The position numbers were made by a program, and so were the translations under genes. Shown here in pieces: positions 5,936-17,793 of a stretch of 17,793 nucleotides of DNA (its first letter is position 1; each line of letters opens with the position of its first letter). The stretch lies in contig PAYW01000038.1 of assembly GCA_002715425.1 (NCBI GenBank), positions 1-17,793 of the forward strand, given 5' to 3'. This stretch comes from Actinomycetota bacterium. GTDB taxonomy: Bacteria; Actinomycetota; Acidimicrobiia; Acidimicrobiales; UBA8592. The notes under the pieces were generated by a model. The model worked only from the letters and a program-made list of their open reading frames with translations, was not told the origin of the DNA and made no database searches.

Positions 5936-8900
5936 CTAAATAGAATCTACAGGAACATAGAGGTCAGAACCAAGGAACAGCAGTCCTGTTTGTATTTCGA
6001 CTTCGTCAATTTCGGTAATTGCATTGAGAACTTTTCGATAGGTAAGCAGCTGGGGAAGATATATTTTAGTTTTATCCGGAAGGGTTTCTGCTGTAACGGC
6101 GTCGGTTTTATAGTCAAGAAGTGTCACTCCGACATATTTTCCAGTGCTGTCTATCGCGACATTAACTCGGTCAATTACGCCATTCCACAGGGTTTCCCTA
6201 CCATCATCACCTTCGAGGCTGATACAGAAGCGTCGCTCTCTCCATGCCTCCCATTGAACTGGGTTTCCATGGATTGTGTTGGGCTGATTTCCTCTAGTTA
6301 GATACTTCACTACGTTCTCTTCTCGAAGCGATAGTCGGAATTCTTCTATGTATTGTCTTAGGGTCTCTTCGGTTACGTCAAACTTTCCGAGAGCCTGAAG
6401 CAGATCGTCATCGTCCAAGGCAAATTCTTCGAGCCAGTTAACCTCTTCGAAGAGGCGATGAAATATTTCTCCACGAAGGGCACCGCCGGTCGAAACGTTG
6501 AACATGTCGTCTATTCGAATTCCACGTGCTCCAAAGTGGTCACTCGGAGACCGACGGGGTAGGTGCCGGTAGTCGGACGTTCTAGGAAGTAGAGGGACTG
6601 ATGGGTCATGGATGACTATGTCTGCATCTTCATCAGTGGGACGCGCGAATAGACTGACCCATTCTGGATCGCTATCAGGGTGTTCCCAGATAATTCCATC
6701 ACCATCTGATGGAACTTCTGGAAAGGATTTACGAAGTAGTTGCTGGTAACTTTTCGCAGTCGACCCTGATTTGGGTATCACCTCAACAATCATTTCTAAG
6801 TGATACCGGGCGCGTGTCATCGCAACGTAGAGAACACAGAAGGCATCTTGTAGCTGGTGGACTAAATAATCTTGATGGAGTGCTTCGAGCGCTCCCCCAA
6901 TCAATGTGCGGTGGTCTTTTTTAGGAGATGTACTTACTCGCTGATAGAAACTTTCTGGATTCGGCCGTTCGGCGTATATTTGTGGCGGCTTGCCTTGCAG
7001 GAGTTCGCTAAGTTCAGGAACAAAAACCGCATCAAATTCTAATCCTTTAGCAGCGTGCACGGTCATAACGCGTATTCCTGCGGTATCGGGATTCTCGACC
7101 TTTCTATTTTCGATATACGTTACAAAGTCAGAAATTCGGCTACTGGTGTTTTCAACGTCATAGCTAAATGCAAGATCAATGAGCTGATTGAAACGACGGA
7201 GGTCCCAATCTCCATATGACTCATGGTCCTGTACCTTCGGAAGTAATGCAGCTATAAATTTCCCATATCCTTCTTCTAAAAGCCGGTTTCGTATAACTGC
7301 GGCTAATACTTCATTCTCTTCAGTGATGTCTTCAAATAGGTGCGTTGGCCATAACGGTGCGGTATTCGCAGCGTGCAATGCTGCTGTATCGCCAGGATGA
7401 TCAGCGAAACGAAGAATTGAGAGTAGTTGCAAGATGGCTAGCGAATCCGTGATGGTATTTCCGCCTTCGCCACTTGCTTTGAGACCTGATGCCTGTAATC
7501 GGTCAATGATGCTAGATATTGGTTTGTTCGTTCTTGTTAGAACCCCTATCGAGATACTGGCTGATTTTTCTGTTAGGGCAAGGAGACGTTCTACTAATTT
7601 TTCAAGAACAGGGTCAGATTCACCCCCGTTTTCATCTTTGCTTCTCGCTTCGACCAGATACGCTGCGCCTGGAGAACCTCGAAGATGATCGGCGCTTTCA
7701 TGTTCTGGATAGTTCATCGTCCATAGCTGAGCTCCTTCAATCCAATCCGGATCGCTACTTGAGAGTTCACTTATTGTCTCTATGAGATTTTCAAATACTG
7801 TGTTTGCCGTTTCAAGTATTACTGGTGAAGATCGATAACTGACGGAGAGAGTTTCGCTCTCCAGTTGTGGATAGATCTCTTTCATCGATTCAAGAAGGCG
7901 GGGCTCTCCTTGACGCCAAGTGTAGATCGACTGTTTAACATCGCCGACACAGTAGAAGGAGCCTCTTTCAGAAGTTGAGAGTATTTTTTCAGCAAAGGGC
8001 TGGAGCACTCTCCACTGTGTGGGATTCGTATCTTGAAATTCATCCAGTAACAGGTGCTCAATTCCTGTTCCAAGCCGATACGAAAAATCCAGTCCTGCTT
8101 TATTGCTTTCTTCATTAGTGAACGAGTTTTGTGCCAAGAGGAGCGGTAGATCACTAAACGTGTACTTGCTGTTTCGCTTTTTAAGCTCCTCTAGTTCTGT
8201 TTCGAGTTTTTCAAGAAGTAGTCGTATTGCACGATTTCTTTTCTGGATTTTCAAAGCGGTGGTATGGGCTGTGGCAGATCCAAGAACCTTTACTGCGAGG
8301 ACAAATGCTTCAGGGATTTCCTTACGGTTAAATTTCTCTGCGCCTTTAATAACTTTTTCTGCAGGTCCTATTGCAATTATTGTCTCCCAGTCTCCTGTCC
8401 GCCTAGCATCTGGGAGAAGCTCACGTACCTTATCGACTGCTTTTTCCCAGACTTGGTCAGGTGAGCCATCTTGGTTCTCCGGGATTTCGTTAAATTCTTC
8501 CAAAGTTGTTATCGCCTCTGCTAAAGCTTCAGAAGATGGAGGATGGGGAGGACTAATACAGTCCCATGCTTCAGGGTTACTTTCGAGAAAAACTGGGCGC
8601 ATTGTTTTGACTACTCGAAGGAACTGTTGATAAACCCCTTTGTCTCCTAGCTGGTTTAATCCCTCGATCATTTCTGTAACACGTTTGAGTCCTTCTTCCT
8701 GCATCATCAAAGTGAGAGCTTCGATAGTTTGCTCATCCTCTCCGGCTTCTTGGATAATCCCCCACTGGGTAGGAAGTCCAAGATCATGAGAGAAGAGATT
8801 TATAAGCCGATTGAAGAAAGCATCGATTGTACTAATTTGTATCTGATCAAGCCTCTGAACGAACTCTGCGAGCTTTCCCCGGCATTGTTGTTCGGTTAAA

Positions 8901-9136
8901 GGCATCCCTATCTCCACAGAGAGTTCTGTTCTTTTGTCAGAGTCCGCAATTGATTCGACGAGGCGTTCAAAAACACGGTCACGTATTTCTCCTGCGGCCT
9001 TTCTTGTAAATGTTGTTGCAAGAATATTCCCTGGATCCTCATTCAGAAATATGAGTCGTAGGTATTGGTTGGTTAGTGAGTACGTCTTGCCAGTACCGGC
9101 CGAAGCGAGGACAACCTTGTTTGAATGTTCAATCAT
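5936..9136 (-). CDS. addA: AddA/RecB-like ATP-dependent helicase-nuclease subunit
   Basis: A 1066-aa SF1A (UvrD/Rep-type) motor fused to a PD-(D/E)XK nuclease, the main engine for resecting double-strand breaks for RecA loading. Helicase motifs: I ASAGTGKT (11-18), Ia TTFTRKAAGEIRDR (41-54), II LLLDEFQDT (362-370), III GDVKQSIYTWRQGEP (398-412), IV VSYRSSP (432-438), V VMTVHAAKGLEF (690-701), VI VLYVAMTRAR (768-777). C-terminal nuclease: GEIFH (H893), D989 in NGVIDR, DYK at 1008-1010, and QLLTY (Q1029, Y1033). The protein begins almost on motif I with no Q-motif, as in E. coli RecB; an in-frame TAG 12 bases before the ATG rules out an earlier start. Its ATG lies inside the end of addB (8-base overlap ATGATTGA), with GAGG 6 bases upstream, so the two are co-translated in equal amounts. 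The helicase-nuclease assignment is very secure; AddA versus RecB naming follows from the AddB-like partner. Confidence 0.93.
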   Translation of the reverse strand: MIEHSNKVVLASAGTGKTYSLTNQYLRLIFLNEDPGNILATTFTRKAAGEIRDRVFERLVESIADSDKRTELSVEIGMPLTEQQCRGKLAEFVQRLDQIQISTIDAFFNRLINLFSHDLGLPTQWGIIQEAGEDEQTIEALTLMMQEEGLKRVTEMIEGLNQLGDKGVYQQFLRVVKTMRPVFLESNPEAWDCISPPHPPSSEALAEAITTLEEFNEIPENQDGSPDQVWEKAVDKVRELLPDARRTGDWETIIAIGPAEKVIKGAEKFNRKEIPEAFVLAVKVLGSATAHTTALKIQKRNRAIRLLLEKLETELEELKKRNSKYTFSDLPLLLAQNSFTNEESNKAGLDFSYRLGTGIEHLLLDEFQDTNPTQWRVLQPFAEKILSTSERGSFYCVGDVKQSIYTWRQGEPRLLESMKEIYPQLESETLSVSYRSSPVILETANTVFENLIETISELSSSDPDWIEGAQLWTMNYPEHESADHLRGSPGAAYLVEARSKDENGGESDPVLEKLVERLLALTEKSASISIGVLTRTNKPISSIIDRLQASGLKASGEGGNTITDSLAILQLLSILRFADHPGDTAALHAANTAPLWPTHLFEDITEENEVLAAVIRNRLLEEGYGKFIAALLPKVQDHESYGDWDLRRFNQLIDLAFSYDVENTSSRISDFVTYIENRKVENPDTAGIRVMTVHAAKGLEFDAVFVPELSELLQGKPPQIYAERPNPESFYQRVSTSPKKDHRTLIGGALEALHQDYLVHQLQDAFCVLYVAMTRARYHLEMIVEVIPKSGSTAKSYQQLLRKSFPEVPSDGDGIIWEHPDSDPEWVSLFARPTDEDADIVIHDPSVPLLPRTSDYRHLPRRSPSDHFGARGIRIDDMFNVSTGGALRGEIFHRLFEEVNWLEEFALDDDDLLQALGKFDVTEETLRQYIEEFRLSLREENVVKYLTRGNQPNTIHGNPVQWEAWRERRFCISLEGDDGRETLWNGVIDRVNVAIDSTGKYVGVTLLDYKTDAVTAETLPDKTKIYLPQLLTYRKVLNAITEIDEVEIQTGLLFLGSDLYVPVDSI

Positions 9137-11876
9137 GGTTTGCCTCTATCTTTCCTCCGCCAAGAAGACCCTCGCCGCATAGTGCGCGGAATGCGAAATC
9201 CCCATAGAGCTTGGGGTTTCCCAGATCTAACCAGTTTCGGTTTCGGATATCTTGAATAACCTGTTTGGCCCGCTCTACCCCTTCCTGAGCTTCAAATTCT
9301 TCCGCTGAGTGGTGGTTAAATGATGCTTTATCCGCCGCAATATTGATGTACCCCAGACGACATGCATCTGACTTCATATCCTCTTCGCGTAGATACCAAT
9401 ACAAGGGAAGCTGGAGGTCCTTCCATCCACCTTTATCTCCAACGCCGTGGGCTTTTATAGGACCAGTGGTATTTGTTTTGTAGTCGAGGATTATCCATTC
9501 ACCGGTCGATTCATTCCGGTCAATACGGTCAATCCTTCCGGTGATCGTGATCGGAATCCCATCTACCAAAAGTTCTTTCGCTAAATAAGACTCCGTTTTG
9601 TAAATAACCCACCCTTCGTTTCTGTGGATCACTTGCTGTTCAGCAAATTTATACAAACGATGGCGAAGCTGTTCCATTTGGATAGTGATGGCGGGTTTGG
9701 CATTAATACCAAACCGTCGTTTCGCCAATCGCGCCAACCCGTCATCAAGAGCTGCACAAATTTCCTTCAAACTAGTACTATCTCTTGCTGCGGAACGTCC
9801 AAAATCTTCGAGGACGTCATGGGCGACGTTACCAAATGAAGCTGGATCGAGTTCTTCACCTGTGTCATCTATGGTTCTGAGTTTGAGAATATGCTTGAGG
9901 TAGAACATATATGGGGATTCGAGATAGGTTCTAAACGCTGTAGCACTCAATTTCTCTGGGACTGCCTGATCTAAATCGATTGGGGGCTGAAACTCAATAA
10001 AGTCCGCTGATCCGTGTTCGCTCTGATACCCCACCCGCTTAGCTGGTTTCAAAGCATGCAACGCATGATCTGCTATATGCTCGTCTTCAACATTCAAAAG
10101 TATCCGGGATGGGAGTAGTGGGTCTCCACCTACTCCGCGCCGGCCAGAAATAACTCGGAGTTGATCTTTACTATGTATAAGGAATTCAAAGATATATGCG
10201 TCTCTAGCAAACCTTCGATCCCTCCGGTCCATTCCCAAGTCAAACCGAACTGTTTCGGGAAGCCAGCCAGGATAGTTAATCTTTGTCGGGAGGGTTTCGT
10301 TATTCATGCCGGTGACGATGAGCACCGGTGATTCATCAAGGGCGAGTTCTAGCCAGCCAAGTAACTCAATGGAAGGCACTCCTTCTTCAGGGGCGTCTGG
10401 TGGAATGTTCACTGATGAGAGTTCTTGCAGTATGAAACTGATAGCTTCAGCCGCAATCATGCGCGGAAGTGCTTCATCCGGTAGGCGCGAGCATTTTTCG
10501 AAGACAGTTTTAAGTTGTTCGAATGTTTCAACGAGGACTCGGTCAGTTTCGTGTATATGCGGCAATAACATGAAGTCCCCGTAAACGTTGGAAAGAAAGG
10601 TCTTAAATTCAATTATCCAATCGGTCACGGATTTCTTCTGAACTGCAGTTAATTCACCGAGCAACTCTTCGATTTTCTGATAATTGACTACCAATCGTTC
10701 ACCCCGTTCTTTCGGGTAGGTTTGCAGCTTTCCAGTGAACCTGAGTGGGAGATGGCGGTTGAAATATTCATCTAAATCATCAATTGCAGAATCATTTCTT
10801 GGTAAAAGTCGTTGAATGTCGGGATGACGAAGCAACCAAACGTAAGAAGAGAAACTTTTTGATGATAAATACGAAGCAACTGCATCTAATAAGAGCGTCG
10901 GTTTTGCCTTGCTAATTGGGGTGCCTGCGGCGTCACGTCCCGTAATCCCATACTCCTCTAGCTTTCGTTGGATGTACGGGGTCACCGAATGGTCGGGAAC
11001 ACCAACACTTATCTTTTCTGCTGGGTATTCTCCGCCTAGTTCTGCGATCGTTTGGATTGTTAGTTCAGCCTGATGTGTTGGATCTTCAGCTACCCACCAG
11101 TCATCTATGGAAAGTTCTGATTTACGCTCAGTCCAATGATCTAAGTTTGGTCTCCCATATCGGTCGAATGTTTCACTGAGCGATTCTGGAGCACCAATAA
11201 GAATGGTCACCTGATGCGGAATCTTATCGATGAGTCTTCTCAACACATCGTTGGAGTCAGGAACACCAATGAGAACGATGTCCAGGTCAGTTTTTATACA
11301 ATCGCTCTCTATGAGGGATTGTCTTGTGTGTTGCGGGTCGCAGAATCCCAGATGTGCAAGAAAGTCATCCTTTTTTTGTTCGGCCTCAGCTAATGCCTGC
11401 CAGCGAATCCTCTCTTTAACAGGGATATCTTCTGGCAGATATTGTTCGAGAGAACGGAACCAATATCCTTCACCAGCTAGTTCACGGTAGAGGCCAAAAA
11501 TCTCGTTCACGAATGCTGTCCCAACTCCGTCATCTGAATTCTCAAATAGCGTCAAGGAGCTTAGAGATTCTGGACTGATTTCTTCAAGCGCTCTCTTCCA
11601 AGCTATCGACTGAAGAAACGGCGAAGCAGGAGGTATGTCAAAATTAATAACTTCCTCTGGAAGCCGCCCTGCAGTCACTACTTTTGGCGGTATGAGCGTC
11701 TTCGCTTCACTAGTTGCAAATAATTCCCGAACACGCCATGCCGACCTTCCTCCAGGAACTCCAATAATCAAATTTTCGAGGTCACTAGGATATTTCTGAA
11801 GGAGCCATTTGACAGATTCTGCTATTAAAGGCTTATCCCAGCCTAAGAATACTCGTTTAGTAGATGACTCTTCCAT
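9129..11876 (-). CDS. addB: AddB-like subunit: degenerate helicase fold plus PD-(D/E)XK nuclease
   Basis: A 915-aa partner of the downstream AddA. The N-terminal loop reads GVPGGRSAWR (39-48) where a P-loop would be, without GKT/S, so ATP hydrolysis here is unlikely; AddB proteins generally act as a Chi scanner and second nuclease rather than a motor. Segments typical of the inactive helicase core are VLIVTGMNNETLPT (518-531), RRDRRFARDAYIF (551-563) and SGRRGVGGDPLLPS (577-590). The nuclease carries FGNVAH (H686), D783 in GRIDRID, DYK at 798-800 and QLPLY (Q822, Y826), all intact. The four Fe-S cysteines of typical AddB are missing: the CPF site is SPY (654-656) and only C900 remains near the C-terminus. 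An in-frame TGA directly precedes the ATG (TGA ATC ATG), so no longer start is possible; no Shine-Dalgarno is seen, which suggests a short or absent leader. Confidence 0.85.
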   Translation of the reverse strand: MEESSTKRVFLGWDKPLIAESVKWLLQKYPSDLENLIIGVPGGRSAWRVRELFATSEAKTLIPPKVVTAGRLPEEVINFDIPPASPFLQSIAWKRALEEISPESLSSLTLFENSDDGVGTAFVNEIFGLYRELAGEGYWFRSLEQYLPEDIPVKERIRWQALAEAEQKKDDFLAHLGFCDPQHTRQSLIESDCIKTDLDIVLIGVPDSNDVLRRLIDKIPHQVTILIGAPESLSETFDRYGRPNLDHWTERKSELSIDDWWVAEDPTHQAELTIQTIAELGGEYPAEKISVGVPDHSVTPYIQRKLEEYGITGRDAAGTPISKAKPTLLLDAVASYLSSKSFSSYVWLLRHPDIQRLLPRNDSAIDDLDEYFNRHLPLRFTGKLQTYPKERGERLVVNYQKIEELLGELTAVQKKSVTDWIIEFKTFLSNVYGDFMLLPHIHETDRVLVETFEQLKTVFEKCSRLPDEALPRMIAAEAISFILQELSSVNIPPDAPEEGVPSIELLGWLELALDESPVLIVTGMNNETLPTKINYPGWLPETVRFDLGMDRRDRRFARDAYIFEFLIHSKDQLRVISGRRGVGGDPLLPSRILLNVEDEHIADHALHALKPAKRVGYQSEHGSADFIEFQPPIDLDQAVPEKLSATAFRTYLESPYMFYLKHILKLRTIDDTGEELDPASFGNVAHDVLEDFGRSAARDSTSLKEICAALDDGLARLAKRRFGINAKPAITIQMEQLRHRLYKFAEQQVIHRNEGWVIYKTESYLAKELLVDGIPITITGRIDRIDRNESTGEWIILDYKTNTTGPIKAHGVGDKGGWKDLQLPLYWYLREEDMKSDACRLGYINIAADKASFNHHSAEEFEAQEGVERAKQVIQDIRNRNWLDLGNPKLYGDFAFRALCGEGLLGGGKIEANHD

Positions 11877-16070: not shown

Positions 16071-17132
16071 ATGGATTTTGATTTTTCTGAAGAACAGCAA
16101 GAAATTAGCAATCTCACTCGCCAGATCTTCGAAGACAAGGTAACCCATGAACGTCTTCGGGAAATAGAACAGAACAGCCTATCTTTTGATACTGCACTAT
16201 GGGAAACGTTGGCTAAATCCGGAATTGTTGGAGCAGGCATCTCAGAGAGTTTCGGTGGCGCAGGCTTAAGCTTCCTAAGTATCACTGCTGTCCTAGAGCT
16301 GATTGGCGAATTCGCGGCACCTGTTCCTCTCCTTGAAACCGTAGTTATGGGAGCCTTACCTATTCAAGAATTTGGAACAGATGCTCAGCGAAATGAGTTA
16401 CTCCCACGCATCTCTTCTGGCGAGCTAGTACTAACAGCAGGACTTGTACCAGGTGACACGGTGCTCGTCGATGACGGCAAATTATCCGGCCGGATTGATT
16501 ACGTCCCGTATGGTTTAGAAGCGGAAATTATCCTGATACCAACTGAGGACGGGATGCACCTCATAAACACTTCTTCTGCTGGTGTTGATCGTACCCTTCG
16601 GGAAACAACGATGGGGCAGCGGCAGGCAATGATCACCCTTGATCAAGCCGCAGGTGACCGTTTAGGTTCAGCTTCGACGACAACGGTACTCAATTGGATC
16701 CGGCTACGTGTTGAATCGGGGATTTGTTCGATACTTTCAGGTACCTGTAAGGCTTCATTAAATTTAGCTGCTGAGTACACAAAAATTCGCCACCAGTTCG
16801 ATCGGCCCATTGCCACCTTTCAGGCCGTAAGCCAAAGGGCAGGAGACGCCTATATCGACACAGAGGCAGTTCGCCTGACATCGCGACAAGCTGCATGGAG
16901 GGTCGATGCGGGCAAGCCGGCAGAAGAAAAAGTCGCTATCGCTCGATGGTGGGCATCCGAAGCAGGATTTCGCGTTGTGCATGCAGCCACACACCTTCAT
17001 GGCGGGGTCGGAGTGGACAGAGATTACCCCCTTCATAGATTCTTTCTCATGGCTCGACAATTGGAACTTACGCTTGGAAACAGCGAAGAGCAGTTGCTCC
17101 TTTTAGGAGATCTAATTGCAGATTCCGCATAA
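16071..17132 (+). CDS. Acyl-CoA dehydrogenase, smaller partner subunit
   Basis: A 353-aa member of the same superfamily, shorter and more divergent than its neighbour. The N-terminal helical domain is present (FGGAGLSFLS at 61-70) but the central strand domain (about 118-200) is reduced and lacks the YSEPxAGTD flavin motif. The C-terminal domain keeps RHQFDRPIATFQAV (240-253) and HGGVGVDRDYPLHRFF (310-325), the latter typical of the FAD-contacting partner chain in heterotetrameric acyl-CoA dehydrogenases. No Glu lies at the EGT position. These traits suggest a subunit that completes the flavin site of the upstream enzyme rather than an independent catalyst. The gap is 9 bases with GGCGGAG directly upstream of the ATG, so equal expression is likely. 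The interaction is inferred from family knowledge and gene order. Confidence 0.88.
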   Translation: MDFDFSEEQQEISNLTRQIFEDKVTHERLREIEQNSLSFDTALWETLAKSGIVGAGISESFGGAGLSFLSITAVLELIGEFAAPVPLLETVVMGALPIQEFGTDAQRNELLPRISSGELVLTAGLVPGDTVLVDDGKLSGRIDYVPYGLEAEIILIPTEDGMHLINTSSAGVDRTLRETTMGQRQAMITLDQAAGDRLGSASTTTVLNWIRLRVESGICSILSGTCKASLNLAAEYTKIRHQFDRPIATFQAVSQRAGDAYIDTEAVRLTSRQAAWRVDAGKPAEEKVAIARWWASEAGFRVVHAATHLHGGVGVDRDYPLHRFFLMARQLELTLGNSEEQLLLLGDLIADSA

Positions 17133-17165
17133 TTAACCTTTACGTATTTTGCGGAGACTATTACC

Positions 17166-17183
17166 ATGGGGACATGGACCTAA
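17166..17183 (+). other. Five-codon open frame nested ahead of the cysteine peptide
   Basis: ATGGGGACATGGACCTAA encodes MGTWT and carries a good GCGGAG ribosome binding site (17151-17156, 9 bases upstream). The cysteine-rich gene starts inside it in another frame (17174). It may feed ribosomes to the inner start, or may simply be chance. Confidence 0.3.
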
Positions 17184-17272
17184 CAGAAAATAGAGATGAA
17201 TGTACTTGCGGGCCTACGTGCGAGTGCACAGCAGAATCGAACTGCGGCTGTCGCTGCTGGGCAAACGATTAG
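17174..17272 (+). CDS. Very small cysteine-rich, metallothionein-like peptide (32 aa)
   Basis: A 32-codon frame in the gap between the acyl-CoA dehydrogenase pair and the thioredoxin-like gene. It has seven cysteines within 19 residues (positions 10, 12, 16, 18, 24, 26, 28), spaced C-X-C-X3-C-X-C-X5-C-X-C-X-C, in the setting DECTCGPTCEC...NCGCRCW. Such clustered CXC motifs are typical of metallothioneins, which bind Cu(I), Zn(II) or Cd(II) through thiolates. The remaining residues are polar and acidic, with one tryptophan and one proline and no signal peptide, so it should be soluble and cytosolic. It is shorter than the 50-60 aa actinobacterial MymT and cyanobacterial BmtA/SmtA types and does not match their arrangement as I recall it. 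GGGG lies only 2 bases before the ATG, so initiation may depend on the nested frame at 17166 with its better GGAG. Too short for most gene callers. Function inferred from composition only. Confidence 0.65.
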   Translation: MDLTENRDECTCGPTCECTAESNCGCRCWAND

Positions 17273-17301: not shown

Positions 17302-17793
17302 TTACGCTAATTGTGGCGCGAGAGTTCCCGCTAAGTAAACAAGATAGGCAAATTGCTCTTCTGTGAGTTCTCCGCTGCTGCGATGGACGACAAGGCCTTC
17401 GCCATCTACGAGAACCCAAAAGGGAAATCCGGTCAGCCCGTATGCTGCAGCTATTGTCTTTTCGGGACTGTCGACAAGTACTTGCGTTGGCCAGTTTTCT
17501 GCTTCAAACCATTCAGATGGTGGGTAGTTTGGTGTCCCTTCACGAACTGACGTTGAGATAGCTACTACCTCAACACCATTAGGGAGACTGTTCTCATTTA
17601 ACCATTGGGCTACTCTGGGGACTTCTCGCTGGCAGTGCGGGCACCAATGTGCAAAGAAACCGATGAGCCGAATTGTTCCATCATCTGGTCGGATCTCGAC
17701 CATTTCTGCGCTGGTATTTGGTTGGGCTTTAAATCCTGGAGCGACATGTCCGACACTCTCGTCAGGGGGAAGCGCTTCGCCAATGATTTCGAC
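17302..17793 (-). CDS. TlpA-like thioredoxin-fold thiol-disulfide protein (5' end cut by window)
   Basis: The frame runs on the - strand off the right edge; a Met codon at 17701-17703 is internal, because the 30 codons before it read naturally (VGHVAPGF at the usual TlpA opening, G..AP.F). The protein should have a thioredoxin fold. The active site is WCPHC in GFFAHWCPHCQREVP, and the cis-proline loop is GFPFWVLVDGEG about 80 residues later. The strand, CxxC helix, strand, helix and GFPF order matches TlpA/ResA/AhpC-TSA-like proteins, which are commonly tethered outside the membrane to reduce or oxidise partner disulfides (cytochrome maturation, folding). The signal or anchor would be in the missing N-terminus. 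CPHC is the DsbA dipeptide, so an oxidising or isomerase role is possible. The gene converges with the cysteine-rich peptide gene, 29 bases apart. Family secure, partner unknown. Confidence 0.9.
   Translation of the reverse strand, partial: VEIIGEALPPDESVGHVAPGFKAQPNTSAEMVEIRPDDGTIRLIGFFAHWCPHCQREVPRVAQWLNENSLPNGVEVVAISTSVREGTPNYPPSEWFEAENWPTQVLVDSPEKTIAAAYGLTGFPFWVLVDGEGLVVHRSSGELTEEQFAYLVYLAGTLAPQLA

Follow-up and report, generated by a model that had tools for sequence, protein, structure and literature searches.

The DNA analysed here, called the window (17,793 nucleotides of contig PAYW01000038.1 from a bacterium of the Acidimicrobiia), carries at 17174-17272 on the forward strand what is, on the evidence of sequence comparison, a real and conserved protein-coding gene under purifying selection, and its product is probably a stand-alone micro-metallothionein-like peptide of a new short family that would hold a Cu(I) or Zn(II) thiolate cluster. 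An earlier note made from the letters of the window had drawn attention to a 32-residue frame with seven cysteines in 19 residues, and translation confirmed where and on which strand it lies, that it has 32 aa and a stop codon, and that its cysteines are spaced as C-x-C-x3-C-x-C-x5-C-x-C-x-C. The frame ends in TAG and reads MDLTENRDECTCGPTCECTAESNCGCRCWAND, with 22% Cys and a pI of 4.1. The core cysteines lie in the segment CTCGPTCECTAESNCGCRCW and fall into the groups CxC, CxC and CxCxC, with a fixed T-A-E-x-N between groups and a fixed Gly and Trp besides. No two cysteines adjoin in the window copy and no signal peptide was seen in it by eye, while His is absent from the window, L303 and L336 peptides as well as from the seven rows of the profile A3 described below. 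An AlphaFold2 model of the peptide, run without metal, was uninformative (pLDDT 59.8, pTM 0.20). The gene occupies a 169-bp gap between an upstream acyl-CoA dehydrogenase gene (16071-17132, forward strand) and a convergent thioredoxin-like gene (17302-17793, reverse strand, cut by the window end). The claim that such a pattern is improbable by chance in this gap is upheld, the exact form occurring in 0 of 20,000 mononucleotide shuffles of the gap read in six frames, and its DNA form, present once in the window, in none of 200 dinucleotide-shuffled versions of it. Even a stop-free stretch with at least seven Cys in 19 aa arose in just 1 of 20,000 mononucleotide shuffles of the gap (six frames).

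With the dehydrogenase as query, 397 genomes of the order yielded four relatives at 87-90% identity and three at 65-70%; the peptide gene lies directly 3' of the dehydrogenase in six of these seven and elsewhere in the seventh (G975). The profile A3, made from the window copy and six copies downstream of the dehydrogenase, found one peptide copy each in 8 of the 20 genomes of the nearest family (class Acidimicrobiia), among them G757 as a newly found carrier, and none at E <= 0.01 in the other 12. In the order as a whole the peptide profile matches 6 of 298 genomes, all six being among the eight family carriers. Chloroflexota gave no peptide in 151 genomes, and the single match among 145 Actinomycetota genomes (L342, E 7e-4), whose frame has neither the first CxC nor the motif, was judged spurious. 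A class-wide search with the single peptide gave matches at E <= 1 in 133 of 296 genomes (best 0.004), with the motif present in none of the 20 loci fetched (regular expression). The acyl-CoA dehydrogenase, searched for in the class under a very strict E-value, matched 0 of 296 genomes. Tblastn of the peptide against plasmids matched nothing; against phages it returned four Rhizobium phage terminase matches at E 3-4, and a phage search with the P0002 form returned four at E 8-9, both sets being taken as noise.

Thirteen columns are invariant in the seven A3 copies, namely the seven Cys together with T, A, E, N, G and W, and the G757 and G975 copies likewise keep all thirteen, which brings the count to 9/9 copies including that of the window. 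The C-terminal part is conserved and the N-terminus varies; an eighth Cys stands two residues ahead of the core in the G734, G780 and G757 copies, and the G904 copy has an extra Cys between the first two core Cys, giving CCC. The earlier note had proposed that dN/dS and cysteine conservation in homologous frames should decide the matter, and such frames exist, without stops or frameshifts and with the cysteines kept in the carriers examined (12 of the 20 family genomes having no copy). The six pairs formed by the four closest copies have dN/dS values of 0.08-0.19. Over the 20-codon core, seven copies give a pooled pN/pS of 0.16, and their Cys codons differ only as TGT versus TGC. Variable sites at codon positions 1, 2 and 3 number 4, 5 and 15, and invariant alignment columns make up 75/99 of the gene, 23/45 of the upstream and 10/43 of the downstream flank. 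Because 8 of 20 family genomes carry a copy and all nine copies read keep the core residues, the frame is taken as a real gene.

The neighbour that the earlier note called a thiol-disulfide protein was borne out as such by Pfam (PF00578, PF08534, PF13905), having a thioredoxin fold with a CPHC motif. A homologue of this Trx-like gene is present in 11 of the 20 family genomes, and it stands tail to tail with the peptide gene in 8/8 carriers, G975 included. Three Trx-bearing genomes are without a located peptide: in G704 the contig ends at the gene, in G947 (58% homologue) the peptide frame was not found in the following 260 nt, and in G799 (homologues at 50% and 45%) the gene was not located by motif. 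Trx is the last gene of an RF3-DsbB-Trx cluster in the relatives, and this gene order, on the opposite strand to the peptide throughout, recurs in 7/7 loci compared, a comparison that leaves out the eighth carrier, G780, as its locus is too short; DsbB was assigned by PF02600 and RF3 named by eye. One such locus, L323:5333-8329 (reverse strand), encodes RF3, DsbB and a membrane-anchored-looking Trx-like CPHC protein, an odd but stable trio in Acidimicrobiia. Since the peptide stays with this cluster in G975 while the dehydrogenase lies about 11.6 kb away, the oxidative-folding cluster is the stable link of the peptide, though within one family the pairing may reflect no more than the species tree. 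A functional tie to the acyl-CoA dehydrogenase was rejected, as the genes are apart in G975, and the dehydrogenase is probably not connected with the peptide in function. No metal-transport or metal-sensor gene is among the identified neighbours (acyl-CoA dehydrogenase, Trx, DsbB and RF3, with part of the ORFs scanned). Among the best 120 relatives of the dehydrogenase listed, the closest named is from an Acidimicrobiales bacterium (74%), other named ones are from Acidimicrobiia or Actinomycetota, and four have Tara names; the source is an uncultured actinobacterium of class Acidimicrobiia, probably of marine habitat. Elsewhere in the window, two overlapping long genes at 5936-11876 (reverse strand; 1066 and 915 aa) look by eye like an AddA/AddB-type helicase-nuclease pair.

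The start region suggests that the peptide is translated from a leaderless transcript. A putative -10 box, TACCAT, lies at 17162-17167 on the forward strand, 6 nt before the ATG, and a TAnnnT hexamer ends 6 nt (eight copies) or 7 nt (one copy) before the ATG in 9/9 copies, which are not independent of one another; for comparison, TAnnnT occurs at a rate of 0.023 per random window position. The hexamers and their flanks vary among the diverged copies (TACCAT, TACTAT, TATACT, TAAACT, TATAAT, TATGCT). It is from the place of this box, 6-7 nt before each start, that a leaderless mRNA is inferred. The complete sigma-70 consensus was scanned for and had no match at the peptide, as would be expected if the -35 element is missing, but this lends the -10 box no support. 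The reading as a structured RNA was rejected, the window being without an Rfam match.

Forms of the core also occur in viral contigs. A wide version of the cysteine pattern matched at least 119 stretches in genome contigs and at least 120 in viral contigs, mostly low-complexity frames, and a stricter filter reduced the 239 loci to 10 rows, of which L096, L120, L172 and L229 were taken as relatives for their T/E/N/G residues and L058, L112, L132, L136, L152 and L236 were dropped. The full pattern ending in CW is found in 6 viral stretches and the motif CxCTxExNCGC in 12 stretches of 11 viral contigs. Some of these forms are proteins 46-71 aa long whose core lies close to the C-terminus and others are stand-alone genes of 26-29 aa (L336, L337, L339 and L340). 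In three of the latter the ATG of the Cys-rich gene shares one base with the TGA that closes a ferredoxin gene (L336:1421-1750, L337:629-965 and L340:3271-3600, all forward strand; the ferredoxin was assigned by PF13459 for the L336 gene), L336 and L340 having identical ferredoxin and peptide letters. The sequence upstream of L339 is different and holds no ferredoxin, and the longer viral forms are likewise without an upstream ferredoxin. The three pairs are followed by a 61-aa frame and then by long frames without Pfam match. WhiB is an actinobacterial family, and because WhiB-like proteins were found by regular expression in 5 of the 12 stretches, with Pfam confirmation for the one tested (L172), the hosts of those five are likely to be actinobacteria. 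As L172 and L336 are parts of one contig, IMGVR_UViG_3300031774_000064, the form linked to ferredoxin has WhiB on its own contig; this contig holds two peptide forms (52 aa and 29 aa) along with WhiB-like and ferredoxin genes. The core of L338:2996-3445 (reverse strand) and a variant core in L233 lie behind an apparent signal peptide by eye, suggesting exported versions.

The core is attached to larger proteins as well. It ends a DUF1858 protein in L096 (3412-3711) and, by eye, probably a second one in L320 (1489-1821), both on the reverse strand, and it opens a GrpE protein (PF01025) in L321; these DUF1858 and GrpE attachments come from 3 of the 98 genomes of the family of a Christensenella genome. 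The GrpE gene (L321:817-1599, reverse strand) has a long N-terminal extension, rich in Cys, which begins with CTCGEDCNCTPNDNCGC and can be read as a putative metal-binding arm on a chaperone cofactor, and the gene right after it reads like dnaK. The core further stands at the end of a DUF1292 protein (P0127), near the end of the 76-aa P0128, and makes up P0126, an unnamed predicted protein of 28 aa from a JGI source. Its occurrence both in stand-alone viral genes and as the tail of other proteins points to a self-contained unit. Besides Cys, the bacterial and viral forms have T, E, N and G residues in common, and while the core-bearing forms may be homologous or partly convergent, these shared residues favour homology, at any rate for the bacterial and viral ones.

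The placing of the peptide outside known families stands, no family of Pfam-A or NCBIfam, metallothionein models included, matching it at E <= 10 with HMMER filters that drop most weak matches. In PHROGs the window, P0003 and P0004 forms were unmatched and P0002 matched one family at E 2.3, a PDB profile search gave 0 matches, and nothing on this peptide was found in a literature search whose coverage mostly excludes subscription journals. The peptide nevertheless has the traits of the metallothionein class, being small, gene-encoded and Cys-rich with CxC motifs, and it is shorter than the known bacterial metallothioneins, as the earlier note had maintained. For a metallothionein it is unusual that T, A, E, N, G and W should be so strictly kept. 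In size and number of thiols, the seven-Cys fungal copper metallothionein comes nearest as a functional analogue, a matter of analogy and not of membership. Like the peptide, the fungal family-I proteins of Neurospora crassa and Agaricus bisporus are very short, with seven Cys mostly in CxC groups; they differ in the order of the cysteine spacings and belong to another domain of life. No T-A-E-x-N or Trp signature is known among them. Seven-Cys fungal proteins of similar size bind about six Cu(I), according to part of PMC13107397. SmtA/BmtA of cyanobacteria and Pseudomonas are likewise small, Cys-rich and gene-encoded in bacteria, but SmtA-type proteins bind Zn through Cys and His in a zinc-finger fold (as given in passages of PMC7387436 and PMC10612145), whereas the present peptide has 32 aa, no His ligands, no zinc-finger portion and no match to a curated Pfam or NCBIfam model. 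A check for a divergent metal-sensing repressor gene of the cyanobacterial smtB type met the same four identified neighbours, with part of the ORFs scanned. MymT of Mycobacterium tuberculosis is short, Cys-rich and from Actinomycetota; it is longer than the peptide and has another Cys order, and the peptide is without an NCBIfam match. A copper role is ascribed to MymT in part of PMC7387436, and that paper, of 2020, states that biological function had been studied for only two bacterial metallothioneins.

Other explanations of the gene differ in how they treat its company and its fixed residues. A possible, if rather doubtful, one is a redox or Fe-S helper that passes metal or reducing equivalents as a specific thiol/metal partner of Trx/DsbB in bacteria and of ferredoxin in phages, without general buffering. 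The tail-to-tail Trx gene in all eight carriers, kept in G975 where the dehydrogenase lies elsewhere, the ATG-stop overlap with ferredoxin in three viral stretches and the invariant non-Cys residues all favour it; yet the Trx gene runs in its own direction on the opposite strand and is thus no operon partner, the co-occurrence, confined to one family, may simply track the species tree, L336 and L340 among the three ferredoxin stretches are identical in their ferredoxin and peptide letters, and L339 and the longer viral forms have no ferredoxin upstream. It is unlikely that the peptide is a small structural module binding Zn or another metal for protein-protein or nucleic-acid contact, such as a regulator of host or phage expression, since the stand-alone forms have almost nothing outside the metal-ligand core and the PDB profile search was empty, although a core set on the unrelated domains DUF1858, GrpE and DUF1292 and the conservation of T, E, N and G besides Cys would suit such a role.

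The remaining readings carry far less weight. Mycobacterial leaderless polycysteine ORFs, which have contiguous Cys codons and act on downstream genes (described in part of PMC9031893), resemble the peptide in their leaderless-type start, Cys-richness and occurrence in Actinomycetota, and a short ORF of this kind would attenuate a downstream operon according to cysteine supply. This is very improbable here: Trx, DsbB and RF3 follow on the opposite strand in 7/7 loci, no Cys codons adjoin in the window copy (the G904 copy having CCC), non-Cys residues are conserved and the core also ends or opens larger proteins. The attenuator reading was rejected on gene orientation, no same-strand downstream operon being present in those loci. 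Equally slight is the probability of a modified-peptide precursor (RiPP), for example a methanobactin-like copper chelator; a short Cys-rich product with a conserved C-terminal part and a variable N-terminus would fit, but no modifying enzyme was found among the four neighbours identified above, though such an enzyme may act in trans, the N-terminal part of about nine residues is short for a leader, and the core also sits within larger proteins. That the frame arose by chance and has no function is barely credible: it spans only 99 bp and the window product is absent from the protein search result, but dN/dS, codon-position pattern, flank divergence, shuffles and syntenic conservation all oppose this, as does the 28-aa homologue predicted in the JGI source, and it was rejected on selection and synteny.

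On the preferred micro-metallothionein-like reading, the peptide would be translated from a leaderless mRNA and remain cytosolic and reduced, wrapping a soft-metal cluster by bridging thiolates (some 4-6 Cu(I) or about 2 Zn(II)) and so buffering or storing copper or zinc and sparing other thiols. Its lasting place beside the DsbB/Trx cluster suggests a task at the junction of metal and disulfide chemistry. The fixed T, A, E, N, G and W argue against a plain sponge and would rather imply a defined cluster fold or a partner protein, which keeps the specific-partner reading in play, and the viral overlap with ferredoxin and the nearness of Trx/DsbB are no more than hints in that direction. A broader proposal can be put forward tentatively, namely that CxCx3CxCTxExNCGC is a widely scattered metal-thiolate micro-module with three uses, as a stand-alone gene of fewer than 33 codons in a family of Acidimicrobiia, as a phage auxiliary gene that in some cases overlaps ferredoxin and as a terminal addition to GrpE, DUF1858 and DUF1292 proteins, and that it might serve redox proteins as a specific partner, for metal or for Fe-S/thiol, one that phages share with their actinobacterial hosts.

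What is new beyond the earlier note is the invariant T-A-E-x-N-x-G and W, the probable leaderless start, the link to RF3-DsbB-Trx, the viral relatives and the fused cores. The peptide is short enough for chemical synthesis, so that its metal stoichiometry, its structure and its tie to DsbB/Trx or ferredoxin are directly testable. If the reading is true, a conserved bacterial family of peptides 28-32 aa long would match the smallest fungal seven-Cys metal peptides in size, and viruses would carry such metal peptides too, in genes that gene callers miss.
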